Source of the DNA: a virus
Direction: 5' to 3' (one strand)
DNA length: 38,765 nucleotides
Virus record (IMG/VR): IMGVR_UViG_3300032893_000162
Location: 1 to 38,765 of that record
Each line of letters opens with the position of its first letter. The stretch's first letter is position 1. Shown here piece after piece: positions 148 through 8,332 of this stretch. The translations under genes were made by a program, and so were the position numbers. The notes below the pieces were generated by a model. It ran no database searches and was not told the DNA's origin. It was given only the letters and a program-made list of their open reading frames with translations.

Positions 148-318
148 TCAATGTACATTTTCCGCATTTACTCCGAATAAAATAGCTATGTCATAGCCTG
201 TTGCAGTTTCTGATAAAAGAGCAATCTCAGCACCAGCCGCCATTGCCTCCAAATAGAGCCTCCTGTCATTTTTATTAATATCCAATTTTAATATTTCTTC
301 TTTACTAAGTTTTTTCAT
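148..318 (-). CDS. Small hypothetical protein, 56 aa
   Basis: ATG at 318 has a good AGGAAG ribosome site just upstream. The protein begins MKKLSKEEILKLD and is mostly charged and helical, with an alanine-rich stretch near residues 26-32. It lies downstream of the TGTCGCTA repeat array and on the same strand as the RepA-like gene, so it may be the next gene of that transcript after the array. No family recognised. Confidence 0.55.
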   Translation of the reverse strand: MKKLSKEEILKLDINKNDRRLYLEAMAAGAEIALLSETATGYDIAILFGVNAENVH

Positions 319-351: not shown

Positions 352-703
352 TGTCGCTATTTGTCGCTACTTTTTCCTTTTTTTCTTGTGGTACGGAAAA
401 CTCCAGTGTCGCTGTCGCTATTCATAACATATTAATATATATAATAATAATAGAGACATTGTATATATTATTAGCGACATTAATGTCTCTATTATGTATA
501 ATATATAAACAATATAGCGACATTTATGTCGGTAATTTTTTGTACCAATGTCGCTATTATTCCTAGGTTTATTGCGGTCTAGAGGGATAATAATAGAGAC
601 AGCGACACGCCCCTCCCCCATCCCAGAAAAAGTTTACACTGTACAAAAATAAATCCGACATCATCAAAAAAATCCAATATTAATGTCGCTAAATGTCGCT
701 ATT
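352..703. repeat. Iteron-like TGTCGCTA array, candidate replication origin
   Basis: At least twelve copies of TGTCGCTA or one- to two-base variants occur in both orientations. Forward copies: 352, 362, 407, 413, 484 (variant), 527 (variant), 549, 684 and 694. Reverse copies (TAGCGACA or TAGAGACA): 451, 472, 515, 594 and 600. Two pairs (352/362 and 684/694) are exactly 10 bp apart. A near-palindrome spans 473-490. The DNA between copies is very AT-rich. The array abuts and enters the 3' end of the RepA-like ATPase gene. Repeats next to a replication helicase are typical of an origin. An operator array is the main alternative. Confidence 0.55.
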
Positions 704-1846
704 ATTTTGTACTGTTCCTATATACCAGATCATTTTTCGTTTATCTAGTTGGCCAGGCTCCATAATAATAGGTGTTCCTTCCCTTCCAAGCTGCTGTCGA
801 GCATTTTTGAGGGTGCGCGGATTTATTCCAGCCTCAATGGCGCGTCTATTCATTTCTTCAGCTGTTTTGCTACCAAAAGACAATTGATTTAAAATAAACT
901 CTTTTGCCACTTCGGTGTCTAATTTTTTCTCGTACATTTCTTGATGTACTGCCTCCTCAGCAGACATATCCATTTTTCCAGCTTGCCAATTAATTTTAGA
1001 AATACTAATTACTTCATCGTTATGTTTAAGCTCGGCTATTTCAATGCGATAAGATAATGTTTCAGCTTTTTTACAAATATTGTTTTTTGAATTAGCAAAT
1101 ACAATCAACTCATCATCATCATGATGCCTGGTAATAGAAAAGTTTTGTCGCGCAGTAGAAGTCCATGCGCTAGACCCCATCACTTCATCAGCAGCACTTC
1201 CAGAGCTATTTCCTTTTGTATCTTTCTTGCGAGTGTGGGCATTTAAAATATTTGCTAAGTCATATTCATTGGCAATTTTATTAAGCTTAAGCACAAAGTT
1301 TCTGACCTGGGGTGCCTTGTCATCACGAAGATTTCCGATATAAGCTGATATGGGATCAATAACAATAAGTTTTACATTTCCTATTTCTTTTACTTTGGCT
1401 TCTAGTAGATGCATATCAGTATCAAGCGCCACAAATCGTTCTATATTGCTTGCTTGAGAATCAGAAGTAGATTTAATTATTTCAATATTATCTAAATTAG
1501 CTCCATCAATAATCAACCTGGGAACAATGCTGCGCTCCACACTATCTTCCGCAGAAAGCAGGATGACATTACCTTGAGGGATGGTATATTCAATACCATT
1601 AACTTTAAAAGTTGAGCCATTTGTAACAGCAGAAATAATAAAAGAGAGCAATGTTGACTTTCCTATACCTCCAGCACCAGCAAAAAGTGTAGAAGTTTTC
1701 AGCGGAATATATCCATCCCACAACCAAGTTTGTTTTTTTATTTCAACTTTGGATGCCCGAATTGAATTAAAATGAGAAAAAGAAGCTATTGGAACAACTG
1801 GTGATAATTTCACAGTTCTATCATTTGGGTGCTTTTGCATATACAC
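689..1846 (-). CDS. RepA-like AAA ATPase / replicative helicase
   Basis: A 385-residue RecA-fold ATPase of the RepA/AAA_25 type that phages and plasmids use to unwind DNA at an origin. Walker A is GAGGIGKST at residues 57-65, Walker B LIVIDP at about 160-165, and a conserved NAHTRKK segment follows near residue 203. The last 70 residues look like a winged-helix DNA-binding domain. The start is GTG at 1846, overlapping the upstream stop as TAGTG, or ATG at 1840; AAGGA lies upstream of both. Its 3' end carries two copies of the TGTCGCTA repeat. No primase domain is seen in it or beside it. Confidence 0.85.
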   Translation of the reverse strand: MYMQKHPNDRTVKLSPVVPIASFSHFNSIRASKVEIKKQTWLWDGYIPLKTSTLFAGAGGIGKSTLLSFIISAVTNGSTFKVNGIEYTIPQGNVILLSAEDSVERSIVPRLIIDGANLDNIEIIKSTSDSQASNIERFVALDTDMHLLEAKVKEIGNVKLIVIDPISAYIGNLRDDKAPQVRNFVLKLNKIANEYDLANILNAHTRKKDTKGNSSGSAADEVMGSSAWTSTARQNFSITRHHDDDELIVFANSKNNICKKAETLSYRIEIAELKHNDEVISISKINWQAGKMDMSAEEAVHQEMYEKKLDTEVAKEFILNQLSFGSKTAEEMNRRAIEAGINPRTLKNARQQLGREGTPIIMEPGQLDKRKMIWYIGTVQNNSDI

Positions 1847-2187
1847 TATTCCTTGTGGTATTTAATAAGTTGATATTCAGTGGTTATAAGCCAAACTTCG
1901 CGGGCTTTATGTGAGTAAAGCTCGCAAATCAGCTCAGTAATATAATCCTCATTGGCATAGCCCGTATCTACAATCGTCATCTCACAGTCTTTAACTGGCC
2001 AATGGTAGTTGTAAGCAGGTAACCAAGCAGGTAGTACTAGCGTACGCTCAGGATAGGACAGATGGAAGTTTTCACCTTTTTTCCATGCACCTTCGCCAAT
2101 AAAAACATAAACATCATTCCTGGGGCGTAGACCTTGTGAAAGTAGTTGTGCTAGGGGTTTGCCATACGGCGGGAGTGGCTTTTGCAT
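1846..2187 (-). CDS. Hypothetical protein, 113 aa
   Basis: The frame overlaps the RepA-like start at its stop, so the two are probably translationally coupled. The protein has many aromatic residues, including AWLPAYNYHWP near residues 53-63 and a central DTGYANEDY. It has no signal peptide or membrane segment. It could be a replication accessory factor by position only. I do not recognise a family. Confidence 0.65.
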   Translation of the reverse strand: MQKPLPPYGKPLAQLLSQGLRPRNDVYVFIGEGAWKKGENFHLSYPERTLVLPAWLPAYNYHWPVKDCEMTIVDTGYANEDYITELICELYSHKAREVWLITTEYQLIKYHKE

Positions 2188-2319
2188 TTTATATCCTTAA
2201 ACGTCAAAAGGGTTGACTTATCTAGCAATCCCCTTAAAATTGACGTGTCTTTTAGTGATTTGGTGATTGCTAAATATCCTATGGGGAGAGCCCAAACTTT
2301 CCCCATGTAACTGCTAATA

Positions 2320-2448
2320 CTACGCTTCCTTATTGAAAAAATTAAGTAAATCTTCGAGTAAACAATTGTATTGTTCTTCAGATGGTGGCACAGCTCCATG
2401 CTTGCAGAGCAGATTCTTATAGCATAGATATAATTCCATACGTGACAT
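2320..2448 (-). CDS. Small hypothetical protein, 42 aa
   Basis: ATG at 2448 has AGGGATATGG upstream. The protein begins MSRMELYLCYKNLLCKHGA and has an acidic helical C-terminus. It fills the gap between its neighbours on the same strand. An internal ATG three codons in is an alternative start. The 132 bases between this gene and 2187 hold no gene that I can support. Confidence 0.45.
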   Translation of the reverse strand: MSRMELYLCYKNLLCKHGAVPPSEEQYNCLLEDLLNFFNKEA

Positions 2449-2499
2449 AAACCATATCCCTATAGTTAATATTCCTATATCCTATCGCACTATCCTATA

Positions 2500-2850
2500 T
2501 CAGTCATTTTCTAGCGTTATCTTGCCATCGAATGGCTCAAAGAGTTGTATCAACCAATGAATATTATGTTGCCCTGTTCTCCACTCTGAGAGTCCAGGTT
2601 TTAATACGGTTCCATGCTGTTTAGAAGTAAATAGCACTATTAGCTTATCCTTCGCATCTTCCTTATATTGCATTAAGCGTGGGAATTCTTCTTTTTCTTT
2701 TTGGTCTTCATTATTTATTATAACTTTCATTGTTGCTTTCTCCTTGGGTTGGTCTATCCATTTATAATGTGGATAATTGCATTCATCACAAAATACTTCT
2801 TTTAAAACCTGTCCTACGTTTCCAGTGTAGCATGATTTAGTTGTTATCAT
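2500..2850 (-). CDS. Hypothetical protein, 116 aa (or 76 aa from an internal start)
   Basis: The first ATG (2850) overlaps the upstream stop as ATGA. An internal ATG at 2730 has a much stronger ribosome site, AAGGAGAAAGCAACA, and would give a 76-residue protein beginning MKVIINNEDQ. The N-terminal extension holds a CDEC pair. The C-terminal half has SKQHGTVLKPG and FEPFDGKITLEN. No family recognised. Confidence 0.65.
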   Translation of the reverse strand: MITTKSCYTGNVGQVLKEVFCDECNYPHYKWIDQPKEKATMKVIINNEDQKEKEEFPRLMQYKEDAKDKLIVLFTSKQHGTVLKPGLSEWRTGQHNIHWLIQLFEPFDGKITLEND

Positions 2851-3047
2851 TCTGCCTCTCCTAATTCTCTTAATAGCTTCAATGCATCACAAGCAAGACA
2901 ATTATCTGGAATTACGTCACAGCCTTTTTTTGCTGCGCGTTTGGCTATATCTAGAAGACTATAACAATTTAACCGAAGCATTTCATAGACGCATATTATC
3001 TCCATAATATCATCCGATTGCGGTTCGAATCTTTTTGTAATGCTCAT
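2847..3047 (-). CDS. Small hypothetical protein, 66 aa, cysteine-rich
   Basis: Overlaps both neighbours by 4 bp (ATGA junctions), consistent with one polycistronic message. It begins MSITKRFEPQSDD and carries five cysteines, including CLAC near residue 50. The cysteines are too irregular to call a zinc finger. No function recognised. Confidence 0.65.
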   Translation of the reverse strand: MSITKRFEPQSDDIMEIICVYEMLRLNCYSLLDIAKRAAKKGCDVIPDNCLACDALKLLRELGEAE

Positions 3048-3460
3048 TCTTCACCTATTTGTTTTAATAAAATTTTAGCGTGATGGCAATAAAACTCTCT
3101 ATCTAAAATCGATAAGCCTTCGTTAGATATTGTTCTTACAAAATCCAAAAGCTTTAAATAACCTTCAGCCAATGGAATATTATGCATTCCAATATCATTT
3201 AGCATTTTTATTTTCATTGATTCAGATATGCCAGTCATCATAATTTTTTCATAAGCCTTCCTTGGTGGAACAGGCAATATTTGCCAATGAGTAGCATTAA
3301 AACTTTTATTATCATATCTAAGGAATCTATGCGAAGAAAATTTATCTCCTAAATAAAGCCCAAAGGTGGGAGCAACAAATATTTCATTAATAGAGCAAAA
3401 TAAAACTTCTTGGCCGGCGATGGGTTGTTGTTCGTTTATATCTATCCAATTGTCGCTCAT
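3044..3460 (-). CDS. DUF551-like phage protein, 138 aa
   Basis: The N-terminal half matches the DUF551 pattern known from many phages: WIDINEQQPIAGQEVL at residues 5-20, then ATHWQILPVPP at about 57-67. The function of that family is unknown. The C-terminal half is helical and lacks a recognisable domain. It overlaps the upstream zinc-type gene and the downstream gene by 4 bp each. Confidence 0.75.
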   Translation of the reverse strand: MSDNWIDINEQQPIAGQEVLFCSINEIFVAPTFGLYLGDKFSSHRFLRYDNKSFNATHWQILPVPPRKAYEKIMMTGISESMKIKMLNDIGMHNIPLAEGYLKLLDFVRTISNEGLSILDREFYCHHAKILLKQIGEE

Positions 3461-3585
3461 AACGCCACCATCTGATTAAATTGATCTTCGCATTCTTGGT
3501 TGCAAAACAAATATCGCCTAGGCACTTCTTCCCAACAGAACATGCATTTAAAATCTTCATTGGGGTCTTTATCTTTATCGCTCAT
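3457..3585 (-). CDS. Small zinc-finger-like protein, 42 aa
   Basis: ATG at 3585; the stop overlaps the DUF551-like start by 4 bp. The protein has C14-M-F-C17 and C28-N-Q-E-C32, an arrangement that could bind one zinc, in an otherwise acidic chain beginning MSDKDKDPNED. It overlaps the 3' end of the upstream gene by 11 bp. Confidence 0.6.
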   Translation of the reverse strand: MSDKDKDPNEDFKCMFCWEEVPRRYLFCNQECEDQFNQMVAL

Positions 3586-3901
3586 AAGCTATCCTTTTGA
3601 TTTTACTTTTTAGACTTATTATTTCTTTTTTTAATTGATCTATTAACTCTCTTTTTTCTTTAATTTCTTTATTTAATTCTTTTTCTTGAGAATGATATAT
3701 TTTCCAATTACGAGCAATATGACAAAGAGCCTCAAAAGAATCAAATTCAGATTTGCATTGCATGCAATTAACAGTTCTCATTTTCATATCAATTTCAAAT
3801 GTATGAAAACAATAACTTACTCTTTCTTGAGTAACATTTAATAGAAGTTTTTTATTATCATTCTTCACAAAATTTATAATATTATCGGCTTCTTCTGTCA
3901 T
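3575..3901 (-). CDS. Coiled-coil protein with CxxC, 108 aa
   Basis: Begins MTEEADNIINFVKND. CMQC lies near residue 47, and a Lys/Glu-rich coiled coil fills about residues 70-105. The junction sequence AGGGGAAGGTATG before the start is repeated exactly before the 3910..4068 gene. No family recognised. Confidence 0.65.
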   Translation of the reverse strand: MTEEADNIINFVKNDNKKLLLNVTQERVSYCFHTFEIDMKMRTVNCMQCKSEFDSFEALCHIARNWKIYHSQEKELNKEIKEKRELIDQLKKEIISLKSKIKRIAYER

Positions 3902-3909
3902 ACCTTCCC

Positions 3910-4068
3910 CTACTCAAATTCTTCTATTGATTCTCTGATATGTTTAATTTCTTCGAAAGCGCCTAAATCATAGGCATATCCAGTTGTTGTAGTGCTTTTA
4001 TGTTTTTTTAAATTAGTTTTGCATTCTTTATAGCGTTCTTCTATCAATAATAAAATATCTTTAATCAT
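3910..4068 (-). CDS. Small hypothetical protein, 52 aa
   Basis: ATG at 4068 follows the strong ribosome site GGGGAAGG and overlaps the upstream stop (ATGA). The chain is helical and charged, beginning MIKDILLLIEERYKE. Its start region repeats 13 bp of the upstream boundary of the next gene. Confidence 0.6.
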   Translation of the reverse strand: MIKDILLLIEERYKECKTNLKKHKSTTTTGYAYDLGAFEEIKHIRESIEEFE

Positions 4069-4265
4069 ACCTTCCCCTGCAATTCTGCGAGTTTATGGTC
4101 AATCAATGAAATTAGAGAATTACGTAACTCTATTTTTGCTTGTGCATATCCTACTTCATAACCATCTTTCCAATCTTTTGAAGGCGCACGATTCCACTCA
4201 ATTCCTGAATACTCACATACTTCAGTTTTAACTACGTTACCCTGATCGTTTATTTTGTATGTCAT
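4065..4265 (-). CDS. Small hypothetical protein, 66 aa
   Basis: Begins MTYKINDQGNVVKTEVCEY. The central segment KDWKDGYEVGYAQAK resembles a short motif seen in many small phage proteins, but I cannot assign a family. ATGA overlaps at both ends place it in the same operon. Confidence 0.65.
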   Translation of the reverse strand: MTYKINDQGNVVKTEVCEYSGIEWNRAPSKDWKDGYEVGYAQAKIELRNSLISLIDHKLAELQGKV

Positions 4266-4459
4266 TCGTCAAATTCTCCATCCATAATATAATCTCTGAT
4301 AACTTCACACATATAATCATTAAAGCCATAAATTAATCTTTTTTGAATATCTGCAGCTTGTTCATCAGTTATCTCAAAAGGTTTTCCATTATTATGTTTA
4401 TAAGTAGCCACTTCATCTTTGATTTCTTGTATTGTTAATGCTTTTATTATGTCGGTCAT
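4262..4459 (-). CDS. Small acidic hypothetical protein, 65 aa
   Basis: Begins MTDIIKALTIQEIKDEV and ends in the acidic IMDGEFDE. Predicted largely helical, with no cysteine pair or membrane segment. Overlaps the downstream gene by 4 bp, and its start directly follows the upstream stop. Confidence 0.65.
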   Translation of the reverse strand: MTDIIKALTIQEIKDEVATYKHNNGKPFEITDEQAADIQKRLIYGFNDYMCEVIRDYIMDGEFDE

Positions 4460-4618
4460 TTATTCTGTTCCTTGATGAAACATTATTTCCATTTTTCCGG
4501 TATTTACTGTCTTTAGAACTTGCTTTATTTTCATGACATCTTCTTTATCCATATTCCATTCATCTTCATAATGTGTTAAAAATCCTGAAAGCCAAAACAC
4601 AAAATCGTTGGGGGTCAT
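4460..4618 (-). CDS. Small phage protein, 52 aa
   Basis: ATG at 4618. The start MTPNDFVFWLSGFL, followed by an acidic stretch and a lysine-rich helix, is a pattern I know from small uncharacterised phage proteins. No function is known. The stop is directly adjacent to the next gene's start. Confidence 0.65.
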   Translation of the reverse strand: MTPNDFVFWLSGFLTHYEDEWNMDKEDVMKIKQVLKTVNTGKMEIMFHQGTE

Positions 4619-4783
4619 CTATTTTTTCCTTTCTAAAATTATCATTATTTTTTGACTCCATTTCTGTATAGCTCTAATTTCAGGCTCTAACGTATTCTTG
4701 TCTATTAAGGCAACTTCAACTTCTAATAATTTATTTTCAATCTTTTCTAATTCGGCTATTAACTTTTTTACTGTGATTGGCAT
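4619..4783 (-). CDS. Small coiled-coil protein, 54 aa
   Basis: ATG at 4783; the stop directly precedes the next gene, whose ribosome site GAAAGGAAA lies inside this frame. Begins MPITVKKLIAELEKIE with a heptad-like Leu/Ile pattern through the chain. No family recognised. Confidence 0.6.
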   Translation of the reverse strand: MPITVKKLIAELEKIENKLLEVEVALIDKNTLEPEIRAIQKWSQKIMIILERKK

Positions 4784-4786
4784 TAT

Positions 4787-5005
4787 TTAGTCCTCTCCTA
4801 AAATCGAATGTCGCCAACCTTCTGTTCCAAAATAATCATCCTCATCATATTCATCTAACCACATAATCATATTAGTAAGAATAGCAGCTACTGAATTATC
4901 ATCATATCTTGCATCATGGTCTTTAATGCCTTGAATAATTTTATCTAGTAATTCTTTTTGTGCTTCTAATGTTAGTTTATTAATTTTTTCAGCGGTTATT
5001 TTCAT
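4787..5005 (-). CDS. Small hypothetical protein, 72 aa
   Basis: ATG at 5005 is preceded by GGGGGA. The helical N-terminus begins MKITAEKINKLTLEAQ and the C-terminus is acidic and aromatic (WLDEYDEDDYFGTEGWRH). The sequence just upstream (TTTTGGGGGATGA) closely resembles the end of the 5166..5348 gene, suggesting a duplicated junction. Confidence 0.65.
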   Translation of the reverse strand: MKITAEKINKLTLEAQKELLDKIIQGIKDHDARYDDNSVAAILTNMIMWLDEYDEDDYFGTEGWRHSILGED

Positions 5006-5028
5006 TCATCCCCCAAAATCGCTGAAGT

Positions 5029-5166
5029 TTATTCTGTTAACTCATGTTCTTCTATTAAATGGCAAGGACTATCATCTATATACTCCACAGCATCTTTTTC
5101 ATATTTAAAAATTCTCTCGACATACTCATGATATGATTCTGTATTCATTACAATATAAACTTTCAT
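5029..5166 (-). CDS. Small acidic protein, 45 aa
   Basis: Start ATG 5166; a second in-frame ATG at 5169 lies too close to GGGGGA. Begins MKVYIVMNTESYHEYVER and is acidic, with a likely beta-alpha start. It overlaps the end of the upstream gene. The spacer 5006-5028 after its stop resembles that upstream gene's last codons. Confidence 0.6.
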   Translation of the reverse strand: MKVYIVMNTESYHEYVERIFKYEKDAVEYIDDSPCHLIEEHELTE

Positions 5167-5348
5167 CATTCCCCCAAAAGCAGTTGTTTTAGTTGCTGCA
5201 TTCGTGCTAATGCCTCATCTTCACTTTCGAATAATTCTTGCATGTCTGTATCATCAACACATCTATAAGTAATTACTCTATTACTAGAAGCAAAAGCAAT
5301 CACATGGTTAAAATTTAATATTGCACCTTCGTTCAATTCAATCCACAT
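5166..5348 (-). CDS. Small hypothetical protein, 60 aa; source of the MWIEL repeat
   Basis: I place the start at ATG 5348 (MWIELNEGAILNFNHV), although an in-frame ATG exists at 5366. The region around 5335-5348 recurs at four later junctions with the frame ATG TGG ATT GAA. That suggests this is the ancestral gene whose start was copied each time a gene was inserted upstream. Predicted beta strands are followed by a helical C-terminus ending QLLLGE. Confidence 0.65.
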   Translation of the reverse strand: MWIELNEGAILNFNHVIAFASSNRVITYRCVDDTDMQELFESEDEALARMQQLKQLLLGE

Positions 5349-5569
5349 TCTTTGTTTTCCTTCCATTTGTTATAATGTTCTCTATTACAAAAATAATCAC
5401 CCATTACTGTCCTAGCCAAATCATTATCATTATGTAAATCAAGCTTAGCATTGCAATAAGCACAATTTTCTTCTTTATGACAGAATTCACATAAGCCAAA
5501 AATAGCTATTTCCTCGCACATGTCGCATTCATCACATCCGCAGCCAATATTGCAGTTTTTGCATTTCAT
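5333..5569 (-). CDS. Cysteine-rich zinc-binding protein, 78 aa
   Basis: Begins MKCKNCNIGCGCDECDMCEE. Fourteen cysteines, mostly as CxxC pairs (for example CEFCHKEENCAYC near residues 31-43), plus FCNREHY near residue 62 point to two or three small zinc sites. The start overlaps a copy of the MWIEL direct repeat. It ends inside the next gene's start region. It might be a transcription modulator, but that is only a guess. Confidence 0.65.
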   Translation of the reverse strand: MKCKNCNIGCGCDECDMCEEIAIFGLCEFCHKEENCAYCNAKLDLHNDNDLARTVMGDYFCNREHYNKWKENKECGLN

Positions 5570-5595
5570 AATTCAATCCACATTGTTATTTGTCC

Positions 5596-5736
5596 TCATT
5601 TGCATTTTCCGCACTTTAAACATTGATGTGTATACCTAAAATAATGCCTTCCAAACCAATAAATATGAGACATGTCTTTCCAGTTATGTCCGCCAGATTT
5701 GTAGCATTTATACCGTCTAATCCAATATGCAATCAT
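5596..5736 (-). CDS. Small basic zinc-ribbon-like protein, 46 aa
   Basis: ATG at 5736 directly follows a variant direct repeat. The chain is basic and aromatic, begins MIAYWIRRYKCYKSGGHNW, and ends HQCLKCGKCK with CxxCxxC. It is short enough to be missed by gene callers. Confidence 0.5.
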   Translation of the reverse strand: MIAYWIRRYKCYKSGGHNWKDMSHIYWFGRHYFRYTHQCLKCGKCK

Positions 5737-5739
5737 GAT

Positions 5740-5808
5740 TCAACCCACATTCTTATTTTCACTATATGTTGTTTTATATAAATCACAAAAAATTATATAA
5801 TTTCGCAT
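5740..5808 (-). CDS. Possible 22-aa peptide between two repeats
   Basis: ATG at 5808 overlaps a direct repeat, and the frame ends inside the next repeat copy (TGA at 5740). Begins MRNYIIFCDLYK. Its bounds match the repeat-to-repeat unit seen for the real genes around it, but it could equally be decayed sequence. Confidence 0.3.
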   Translation of the reverse strand: MRNYIIFCDLYKTTYSENKNVG

Positions 5809-5822
5809 ATCAATCCACATTG

Positions 5823-5966
5823 TTAATTATCTTCACCCCATGATTCATAAATTTCATCTTGCCAAACTTCTTCTATTTTTTCTATTTCTTCCAATAAAGA
5901 CTTAGCTAGCGGATGGTCTTCTTCTTTAAGTAACTCTTGAATTCTTCTTAGTTCTTCTAAATTCAT
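5823..5966 (-). CDS. Small acidic helical protein, 47 aa
   Basis: ATG at 5966 lies inside a direct-repeat copy. Begins MNLEELRRIQELLKEEDH and is strongly acidic and helical, ending ESWGEDN. A direct repeat follows the stop. No family recognised. Confidence 0.55.
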   Translation of the reverse strand: MNLEELRRIQELLKEEDHPLAKSLLEEIEKIEEVWQDEIYESWGEDN

Positions 5967-5969
5967 AAT

Positions 5970-6236
5970 TCAATCCACATTGGTTTGTTCCTCTAGTAGT
6001 TCGTAGCTGGCTTTGAAAATGTCTGGTTTGCAAGCATAAAATTCATTGACTATTCCACGAATGACATAATCATTAATATCAGCAGTCGTAATGCCTTCTA
6101 ATGTTTTAATATCTAATTTTCCATCTACTCTTTCACCGCAAATTATTCCAACAAAGTTATAAACAATTTCATTAAAGTTATTGCCTTTCCATTGGATTGC
6201 TTCAATAACAACAGGTTTTTTACGGTATTTAGACAT
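5970..6236 (-). CDS. Phage protein of the MSKYRKKPVVIEA type, 88 aa
   Basis: I place the start at ATG 6236, after GAGGAACAAACC, because MSKYRKKPVVIEAIQWKG is the typical N-terminus of a widespread uncharacterised phage family. A longer frame reaches 6353, but that part overlaps another gene. The C-terminus EEQTNVD nearly repeats the EEQTNV end of the upstream gene, owing to a 17-bp direct repeat. Confidence 0.75.
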   Translation of the reverse strand: MSKYRKKPVVIEAIQWKGNNFNEIVYNFVGIICGERVDGKLDIKTLEGITTADINDYVIRGIVNEFYACKPDIFKASYELLEEQTNVD

Positions 6237-6366
6237 TGGTTTGTTCCTCAACTTTATATTTGTCTGGATAAACCCATCCATCTTCGCATTGATCGCATGG
6301 GTAACCCTCACCATAATAATCATCCGGATTACCCTGACAATTTGTGCATTCATGACGATTTAGCAT
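6229..6366 (-). CDS. Small zinc-finger-like protein, 45 aa
   Basis: ATG at 6366 overlaps the upstream stop (TGATG). It carries C7xxC10 and C24xxC27, a classic two-pair zinc site, in an acidic chain ending VEEQTNV. Its end lies in the next gene's start. Confidence 0.6.
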   Translation of the reverse strand: MLNRHECTNCQGNPDDYYGEGYPCDQCEDGWVYPDKYKVEEQTNV

Positions 6367-6731
6367 CACTTCTCCTCCGGCTTATAAAGCCCGTTTTCAA
6401 TCAGCTCAATTAACATACGCGCACGCGCATCTGCTTCATTTATGCCGCTAAAGCCATCTACAAGAGTATAGCTTTCAATATAAATTAATTTTTCTGATGT
6501 ATCTAAATACGATGTTTCTATTTCTCTAACAATGGGTAATACCAACTCCAACAACTCCTCAGAAGTAAAAGCCGAATAATACTGATGAGCGCAAGAAGTG
6601 GGTTTTGAATGATATATTTCAAAACTACCATCGCTGCGTAATTCATATTTAAAATAAGCATTCTGCGGAACATTAAGTTCTTTCAATCGCTTCGCCAAAT
6701 CCAGCGATACACACATTTGCTCAAGCTCCAC
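6366..6731 (-). CDS. Hypothetical protein, 121 aa
   Basis: Begins MELEQMCVSLDLAKRLKELN, with YFKYELRSDGSFEIYH near residue 27 and a C-terminal GFSGINEADARARMLIELIE. The layout (a start on an SLDLAKRLKELG-type helix, a later ADARAKMLI helix) matches small phage proteins of unknown function seen beside replication or recombination genes. Confidence 0.65.
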   Translation of the reverse strand: MELEQMCVSLDLAKRLKELNVPQNAYFKYELRSDGSFEIYHSKPTSCAHQYYSAFTSEELLELVLPIVREIETSYLDTSEKLIYIESYTLVDGFSGINEADARARMLIELIENGLYKPEEK

Positions 6732-6937
6732 TACAAATCCTCCGAAACATCATAAATGGTTTTAACTATTTTATTGTTCTTATCAAAAAATCTTTGCAAC
6801 CTCAAACGTTCATATTCTTCTTGTGCTTCCTTATAAGTTTTATAATCGTCATATGTATCTTCCCATGGACTAATACAAGTAGCTTTTCTTTGAACATTAA
6901 ACATACCTGATTTTTTCTCTACAATTCTGTAGCGCAT
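6731..6937 (-). CDS. Small hypothetical protein, 68 aa
   Basis: Begins MRYRIVEKKSGMFNVQRKA. A beta-rich N-terminal half is followed by the helix YKEAQEEYERLRLQRFF, a layout common in small phage proteins. AAGGAG lies upstream. Second gene of the leftward transcript after the helix-turn-helix gene. Confidence 0.65.
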   Translation of the reverse strand: MRYRIVEKKSGMFNVQRKATCISPWEDTYDDYKTYKEAQEEYERLRLQRFFDKNNKIVKTIYDVSEDL

Positions 6938-6943
6938 TTATCC

Positions 6944-7138
6944 CTACTCCTTGCTAACCCTATGTTCTTGCAGCCATCTATCAAAACCCTCTAGGTCAAT
7001 TAAATTCCTCGACCCAATTTTAATTAAACACTTTGACCTAAAGCCCTCTGTGTCCCTAGCGATAAAGTTTCTTATCGCCGATGAACTAAAAGGAAAATAA
7101 TTCCCGATGTCGCGTATTGTTGAGTATTTTTTTTCCAT
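6944..7138 (-). CDS. Excisionase-like helix-turn-helix protein, 64 aa
   Basis: The order is a helix (STIRDIGNYFP), a second helix (SSSAIRNFIARD), then CLIKIGSRNLIDLEGFDRWLQEH. This is the winged-helix layout of MerR/excisionase-type phage DNA-binding proteins, including the KIG-R-ID-hairpin. It is the first gene of the leftward array and faces the divergent control region, so it may bind the TTAATC repeats there. No integrase is present, so regulation is more likely than excision. Confidence 0.65.
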   Translation of the reverse strand: MEKKYSTIRDIGNYFPFSSSAIRNFIARDTEGFRSKCLIKIGSRNLIDLEGFDRWLQEHRVSKE

Positions 7139-7197
7139 TATATGCTCGCTATGGTTAGTTATCCTGTGATCATTCCAAATACAAAATAATACACCAG

Positions 7198-7303
7198 GAT
7201 TAACTGAGATGTAATTTAAACCTCTAGGGATTAAATAGCAATGATTTTTAATCTGGATGATTGACAGTTAATCTGGTTTAATCTATATTGATCTGAGTTA
7301 ATC
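7198..7303. promoter_or_regulatory. Phased TTAATC operator-like repeats
   Basis: TTAATC occurs at 7248, 7268, 7278 and 7298, so the copies are 20, 10 and 20 bp apart and lie on one face of the helix. The reverse form GATTAA occurs at 7198 and 7229. The 7268 and 7278 copies lie within the rightward promoter's spacer and just before its -10. This suggests cooperative control of the rightward genes and perhaps also the leftward ones. Confidence 0.55.
7261..7289 (+). promoter_or_regulatory. Rightward sigma70-type promoter
   Basis: A consensus -35 TTGACA (7261-7266), a 17-bp spacer and a near-consensus -10 TATATT (7284-7289) lie 33 bp before the first rightward gene. It overlaps the TTAATC repeats and is probably repressible. 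It would drive the recombination operon. Confidence 0.7.
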
Positions 7304-7321
7304 AACTCAAAGGATGGTATT

Positions 7322-7510
7322 ATGATGCTCGAAGATCGACATTTAATCGCTGAAGCACTGGAAAAAATTGGCAAGCCCATGCTGGCGAACGATGCGAGAC
7401 AGCAAGTGGATGTTAAGGTTTTGTCACAGTACGTGAGGGTGATACAGCATGTTGCTAATGATTGGTATATACTTGAGCCGCTATGGTCAGCGGGGTTGAT
7501 ATACGCATGA
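7322..7510 (+). CDS. Small hypothetical protein, 62 aa
   Basis: First gene of the rightward operon, with AAAGG upstream of two ATGs. Begins MMLEDRHLIAEALEKIGKPM. Mostly helical. The stop overlaps the next start as ATGA. Confidence 0.65.
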   Translation: MMLEDRHLIAEALEKIGKPMLANDARQQVDVKVLSQYVRVIQHVANDWYILEPLWSAGLIYA

Positions 7511-7668
7511 TAACGCATAAGACTTGTGGAACAAGATTGCAATATAAGACCAGTGATACGCCATTGGATTTTGGTTATGGTAGAGAATGTATTAGCTATA
7601 TGTGGTGCTGGGATTGTAAGCGTGAAGTACCATTTGAAGAACAAAAAATAGGGAACAACAATGAGTAA
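7507..7668 (+). CDS. Small zinc-type protein, 53 aa
   Basis: ATG at 7507 overlaps the previous stop. It has HKTCGTRLQ near residue 4 and CWDC at residues 34-37, and so could hold one zinc. The C-terminal bases carry the next gene's ribosome site (AGGGAACAACA). Confidence 0.6.
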   Translation: MITHKTCGTRLQYKTSDTPLDFGYGRECISYMWCWDCKREVPFEEQKIGNNNE

Positions 7669-8332
7669 TGCAATTTTAGTAATTGGAGAAAGTGGTTCTG
7701 GTAAATCAACTGCTATTCGTAATCTTCCACCAAAGGAAACATTTGTAATAAATGTGATTGGAAAGCCACTACCATTCAGGGGTTCAGGAAAGAATTATGT
7801 TCCTGTGACGGAAGGTGGAATGGTTGGAAACTACTACTGCTCTGATAAACCAGCACAGATCATAGCAATACTTAAATTCATTAATACTAAACGTCCTGAT
7901 ATTAAGTACATTGTTTTAGATGATCTTGGTTATACAATCATGAATGAATTTATGTCTAAAGCGTTGCTGAAGGGTTATGATAAATATTCCGAGATAGGTA
8001 AAAACTTTGCTGATATAATTGATACTGTAAAGTCTTTAAGACAGGATTTATTTTGTGTCCTTATGATGCACGTTGAAGCTGATAAACAAGGCAAAACCAA
8101 GCCTAAAACCGTCGGCAATATGATAGACCAGTATGTGTGTATAGAAGGTAACTTTACCTATGTGCTTCATACACTAGTATCTGATGGAAATTATAAGTTC
8201 CTGACTAATAATGATGGTCTGCACATGGCAAAGACCCCTATGGGATTATTCGATACCATGACCGTTGATAATGATCTTATGGCTGTTATTGAAAAAATTA
8301 ATAATTATTTGAATGAAGATATAACTTTATAA
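7661..8332 (+). CDS. Sak4-like RecA-fold ATPase (single-strand annealing/recombination)
   Basis: A 223-residue P-loop ATPase with Walker A GESGSGKST at residues 9-17 and Walker B YIVLDD at 83-88. A GNYYC segment precedes it and a conserved LMMHVEAD strand follows near residue 128. Size and layout fit AAA_24 phage proteins such as Sak4, which help anneal single strands. The next gene is SSB-like, and that pairing is typical of Sak4 loci. It could be described only as a phage nucleotide-binding protein. Confidence 0.75.
   Translation: MSNAILVIGESGSGKSTAIRNLPPKETFVINVIGKPLPFRGSGKNYVPVTEGGMVGNYYCSDKPAQIIAILKFINTKRPDIKYIVLDDLGYTIMNEFMSKALLKGYDKYSEIGKNFADIIDTVKSLRQDLFCVLMMHVEADKQGKTKPKTVGNMIDQYVCIEGNFTYVLHTLVSDGNYKFLTNNDGLHMAKTPMGLFDTMTVDNDLMAVIEKINNYLNEDITL

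Follow-up and report, generated by a model that had tools for sequence, protein, structure and literature searches.

The window analysed here is the entire IMG/VR virus record IMGVR_UViG_3300032893_000162 (38,765 bp). It belongs to a tailed phage, and genes for the portal, the terminase subunits, the major head protein, a Sak4-like annealing protein, endonuclease VII and an endolysin have been identified in it. Between the replication genes and the lysis/packaging genes, which share one strand, lies an array of short repeats that adjoins the 3′ end of a repA-like gene. The features of this region are as follows.

148-318, minus strand: 56-aa open reading frame, read from the sequence, the far-side boundary of the array
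352-701, both orientations: iteron array and proposed replication origin, 14 sites at one mismatch or fewer to TGTCGCTA
352-369, plus strand: direct pair with 10-bp spacing, at the distal end
407-420, plus strand: overlapping direct pair at 6 bp, TGTCGCTGTCGCTA, left dyad arm; a matching pair closes the A/T tract of the related locus L271
424-452, no strand: A/T tract of 29 bp with at most one G/C, proposed unwinding element; a similar tract is present in related phages
451-458, minus strand: single site TGTCTCTA
472-491, no strand: inverted pair TAGCGACA-4-TGTCTCTA, with a partner pair in L271
515-534, no strand: inverted pair TAGCGACA-4-TGTCGGTA
549-556, plus strand: single site
594-607, minus strand: overlapping direct pair at 6 bp, right dyad arm, overlapping a weak terminator-like hairpin
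684-701, plus strand: direct pair with 10-bp spacing, overlapping the 3′ end of repA (its stop codon and the final codons)
689-1846, minus strand: repA-like gene, 385 aa, RecA-fold (AAA_25) helicase core and predicted C-terminal winged helix
692-961, minus strand: portion of repA that encodes residues 296-385, the predicted C-terminal winged-helix domain and candidate reader of the repeats
1846-2187, minus strand: gene for a 113-aa protein, directly upstream of repA in 10 of the 10 homologous loci compared

The contig, which is classed as linear, begins approximately 350 bp from the array; the gene order in related phages suggests that its two ends lie close together in the actual genome.

Repeat sites and duplex stability

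The initial annotation described a two-orientation array of a dozen or more copies in about 350 bases, and our count agrees with this description. At one mismatch or fewer, nine TGTCGCTA sites occur on the plus strand (352, 362, 407, 413, 484, 527, 549, 684 and 694) and five on the minus strand (451, 472, 515, 594 and 600). The two 10-bp-spaced pairs that had been reported are present at 352/362 and 684/694, and to these we add overlapping pairs at 407/413 and 594/600 and inverted pairs at 472/484 and 515/527. Twelve of the sites are paired, in two direct pairs with 10-bp spacing, two overlapping direct pairs at 6 bp and two inverted pairs separated by 4 bp, and the other two stand alone. All eight exact copies of TGTCGCTA in the whole window fall inside 352-701, compared with a mean of 0.007 copies expected from dinucleotide shuffles of 319-710, and in 2000 such shuffles a G/C-containing 8-mer never exceeded four copies. 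The repeats are beyond chance and confined to one place, as an iteron-type theta origin requires.

Ten of the 14 sites have a mirrored partner, which gives the array an imperfect dyad symmetry about a centre near 504. The sequence dyad score overstates this symmetry because the shuffling on which it is based destroys the repeats too; the fairer figure is that of the position test, in which 15 of 500 random placements reached 10 mirrored sites. It had also been noted that the array extends into the coding sequence at the 3′ end of repA, and strong selection for the sites had been suggested on that basis. The overlap is real, since repA ends at 689, its stop codon lies inside the site at 684-691 and the site at 694-701 lies in its last codons. 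However, only two of the 14 sites touch the coding sequence, and we give the argument for strong selection less weight because the matching pair of the related phages falls immediately after the stop codon.

At lengths of 50, 100 and 150 bp alike, the stretch with the lowest duplex stability in the 38.8-kb record begins at 418-424, within the array; for 50 bp, it begins at 424. An easily melted A/T-rich stretch, which is also required of an iteron-type theta origin, is therefore present. DnaA boxes are common, though not universal, at such origins; none was found in the array by a strict or a relaxed pattern, and no IHF site was found there by a simple pattern. GC-skew mapping, which had been proposed as a check on the origin, was uninformative; the skew tracks gene orientation.

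An array of binding sites could instead serve the control of transcription, with the MarR-like domain of RepA or another regulator governing the 56-aa open reading frame and the nuclease, lysis and packaging genes. Such a role would be in keeping with the location of the array, which has replication genes on one side and lysis/packaging genes on the other, on the same strand, with the transcription repressors that are the best fold matches of the RepA C-terminus and with the one promoter-like match inside the array (474-502). However, promoter-like matches are at the level of the shuffles (5 observed vs. 4.9), and 14 sites over 350 bp, together with the lowest duplex stability of the contig and a conserved A/T tract, suit an origin better. 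Moreover, sister phages swap other replication genes, with arrays, into the same place, as described below. We regard control of transcription as a very improbable function of the array.

Arrays and replication genes in related phages

A terminase search led to approximately 350 related viral contigs, and a RepA homologue was present in three of 46 whole records; further RepA loci were obtained by alignment-based searches. A query with RepA alone against viral contigs gave zero matches, and the Sak4 kin of the window contained no RepA homologue. The RepA clade comprises 13 distinct phages, including the window, and each of them carries a short-repeat array in the non-coding stretch right 3′ of repA. 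The repeats are lineage-specific: TAGCGACA in the window and TAGCGATA, TAGCGATC, TGGGCAA, ATGAGCA/CATGAGC, GGCAAAC, TGGGACTG, GTAGACTG and CGTGCCA in the others. Such repeats are absent from size-matched control stretches taken within repA and 800 bp beyond.

The strength of the arrays was expressed as the count of the best 8-mer at one mismatch or fewer against the maximum of 30 shuffles. By this measure, the arrays are clear in the window (14/8), L271 (13/7), L276 (11/8), L278 (12/6), L283 (13/7), L274 (10/8) and L277 (10/7). They are weaker in L281 (13/12), which is near an outlying shuffle, and in L270 (9/8) and L275 (7/7), where the signal is weak. Three out-of-sample loci (L302, L304 and L316), scanned after the pattern had been seen, all have arrays directly 3′ of repA, with repeat counts of 11 for GGCAAAC, 10 for CGTGCCA and 6 for ATCGCTA, compared with 2 in control windows. 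The C-terminus of the L302 protein is like those of L277 and L278, and its repeat is identical to theirs; the C-terminus of L316 is nearest to that of the window, and its repeat is TAGCGATC. Six distant members of the AAA_25 family (L285, L286 and L288-L291) have no array 3′ of the gene.

The arrays share a common layout, which consists of a repeat pair at the repA stop (most loci), a terminator-like or GC-rich patch (most loci), mixed repeats, an A/T tract and a closing pair (most loci). The A/T tract lies approximately 165-260 bp past the repA stop. Across the array, a base-by-base alignment is possible for the three closest sequences (window, L270 and L271). In L271 and L270, a strong terminator-like hairpin with a T run is located approximately 40-75 bp past the repA stop, right after the first repeats, and transcription of repA would therefore end ahead of the main array; terminator-like matches in the window are weak only. 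Just past the A/T tract, L270, L271 and L274 have two direct copies of CGTGAAACA (TTTCGTGAAACAATTTCGTGAAACA), which are shared even though the iterons differ and each of which matches half of the bacterial parS site. In the window, an extra TGTCGCTA pair occupies the position of these copies.

In related phages whose terminases are similar, the position of repA is taken by other replication genes, which precede those for the nuclease, the endolysin and the terminase. L296 encodes an AAA_25 protein and a Toprim protein and has nine copies of AGTACCC and an A/T tract, and L297 encodes a VapE-like SF3-type protein and has 13 copies of AGGGTAA and an A/T tract. Because sister phages carry other replication genes, some with arrays, at this position, the comparison points to a replication-origin module that is swapped as one unit at a fixed place. 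In this uncultivated phage group, a single locus would thus serve for the exchange of replication modules, some of which bring their own origin. Two further loci (L293:8246-8860 and L298:6522-7271) encode helix-turn-helix (HTH_36) initiators with repeats within the coding sequence, in a lambda-O-like arrangement. The AGACCTA repeats of L294 and the CGTAACC repeats of L295 were considered as origin arrays and rejected, as these tandem tracts look coding or simple.

Short repeats beside replication genes are also found at partition (parS) and packaging (pac) sites, and the packaging genes of the window are downstream on the same strand. However, no ParA- or ParB-like protein was detected among the scanned window proteins, which are a subset of the open reading frames, and in related phages the array is approximately 2.5 kb ahead of the gene taken for the small terminase. 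Furthermore, the array varies with the replication gene rather than the terminase; phages with different replication modules have terminases that are 72-80% identical. We give almost no credence to a partition or packaging site.

The initial proposal that the array is an origin is therefore supported comparatively: in 13 related phages, the sequence of the repeat differs and its position and layout are kept. It gains further support from the least stable DNA of the contig, which lies within the array, and from the sister phages that place other replication genes at this spot. We consider the array very probably to be the replication origin of the phage.

The RepA-like protein and its proposed recognition of the repeats

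The neighbouring gene had been annotated as RepA-like, and this identity holds. The protein matches Pfam AAA_25 (1.1e-26). Its best solved relative is RepA of plasmid RSF1010, a hexameric helicase, which is the best match of the sequence profile (1g8y, E 3.6e-6) and of the predicted fold (1nlf, E 7.9e-9) alike. The Walker residues G57, G59, K63 and S64 and the residues D164-P165 are invariant in 12 homologues. By sequence and by predicted structure, the core is an RSF1010 RepA-type RecA-fold helicase with intact Walker motifs. The C-terminal domain was modelled by AlphaFold2 with a pLDDT of 83, and residues 302-376 are predicted to form three helices and a beta hairpin, i.e., a winged helix. 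According to Foldseek, the best matches of this domain are mostly MarR-family winged helices, none of them below E 0.001.

The similarity of the repeats was compared with that of the candidate proteins. With seeds chosen by eye at 10 loci, repeat similarity correlates with the RepA C-terminal domain at r 0.82, with the ATPase core at r 0.57 and with the 113-aa protein at r 0.36. With machine-picked seeds at 13 loci, the lead of the C-terminal domain over the core is modest (0.73 vs. 0.67), and the C-terminal effect given the core has a partial correlation of 0.41 (permutation p 0.001); these are Mantel tests, which remove shared ancestry only in part. This co-variation supports the view that the winged helix of RepA binds the sites of the array.

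The 113-aa protein is a possible replication partner of the RepA-like protein. It has no family match in Pfam, PHROGs or NCBIfam, and it is absent upstream of repA in the distant locus L284. This protein, or another phage or host protein, could read the repeats of the origin and load RepA, in the manner of RSF1010 RepC. In favour of such an arrangement, the RSF1010 origin is melted by RepC before RepA is loaded (PMC8965321), and the 113-aa protein keeps its position as consistently as RepA does. However, its correlation with the repeats falls to a partial value of about 0 when the RepA C-terminus is allowed for, and RepA has a predicted winged helix of its own. A separate reader is, in our judgement, unlikely.

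We therefore favour, as the likely reading, a theta-type iteron origin at which the RepA-like protein acts as both initiator and helicase by means of its C-terminal winged helix. According to this model, the winged helix would bind the TGTCGCTA sites, which are paired around the A/T tract in a rough dyad, and the RepA subunits gathered there would help to melt the tract. The RecA core of the RSF1010 RepA type would then assemble on the exposed strand, presumably by the loading of a hexamer, and unwind the duplex, possibly in both directions. The host primase and polymerase may take over from that point.

Comparison with known systems

Rep of the Staphylococcus pathogenicity islands (SaPIs) and SCCmec Cch2 are AAA+ helicases. 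In both systems, short repeats directly downstream of the initiator-helicase gene are recognised by the C-terminal domain of its product; this recognition is stated for the SaPIs and biochemically shown for Cch2, which unwinds in the 3′-5′ direction (PMC7581432). The window resembles these systems in having its array directly 3′ of repA, and reading by the C-terminus is suggested here by co-variation. However, the core of the window protein is of the RecA-fold RepA/RadA/DnaB type, joined to a MarR-like winged helix, and not AAA+; because of this RecA-fold core, the window system falls outside the SaPI Rep/ori class.

Among solved proteins, RepA of RSF1010 (IncQ) is nearest to the helicase core, in sequence and in fold. 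RSF1010 divides iteron reading and unwinding between two proteins, RepC and the 279-aa helicase RepA (PMC8965321), whereas the helicase of the window carries a predicted C-terminal DNA-binding domain. Neither a RepC-like initiator nor a RepB primase was found in a scan of the early proteins at 689-8332 that covered those of 108 aa or longer and one of 82 aa. In the PLE satellites of Vibrio cholerae phages, the DNA-binding domain of the RepA_N initiator and the origin repeats change together (PMC8263062), and the repeats of the window clade likewise co-vary with the initiator domain. However, PLE RepA is unrelated to the window protein and is without a helicase, whereas the window protein has a helicase core, and the PLE repeats are three semi-palindromes of approximately 30 bp (PMC8263062, PMC7145576).

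As in the window, the iteron origins of lambda (O/ori) and of the Lactococcus phage replisome organisers are tied to the initiator gene. The iterons of those phages lie within that gene and the initiator is not a helicase (PMC8965321), whereas the array of the window is 3′ of repA and the candidate initiator is a helicase. GP46 of Lactococcus phage F13 is a RepA-cluster helicase that unwinds in the 5′-3′ direction and, like the window protein, is related to RSF1010 RepA and AAA_25; in contrast to our proposal for the window, neither a role in origin binding nor linked repeats are described for GP46 in the excerpted text of that source (PMC8965321).

Our search of the open-licence literature returned no description of a RepA-type helicase with a fused iteron reader. 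With more doubt than confidence, we propose that the clade represents a family of RepA/DnaB-fold phage helicases with an origin-reading domain of their own, in which one protein would recognise the origin, melt it and become the replicative helicase, with no separate initiator or loader. If this is true, SaPI Rep and SV40 T antigen would have their RecA-fold counterpart in this family, and the fusion, provided that it works as proposed, would yield a compact, self-loading DnaB-type helicase that acts at a defined sequence. The proposal would also give a likely function to AAA_25 proteins with a C-terminal winged helix, which are labelled in databases only as ‘AAA family ATPase’ or ‘DNA primase/helicase’. 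The approximately 10 natural pairs of DNA-binding domain and target offer material for the study of how origin specificity evolves.

A search of public DNA with the TGTCGCTA motif returned mostly coding or simple tandem repeats and gave no evidence of kinship. In an unrelated GC-rich phage (L004:2780-2880), three 10-bp-phased copies of TTAGCGACA and an inverted copy lie right after a P4/D5-type primase-helicase gene; this is perhaps a convergent use of the same word, or chance, as the locus was selected by the motif search. At L015:3434-3700, approximately 250 bp of tandem-like TTAGCGACACTGGATGACAC repeats occupy a non-coding stretch downstream of a terminase gene.
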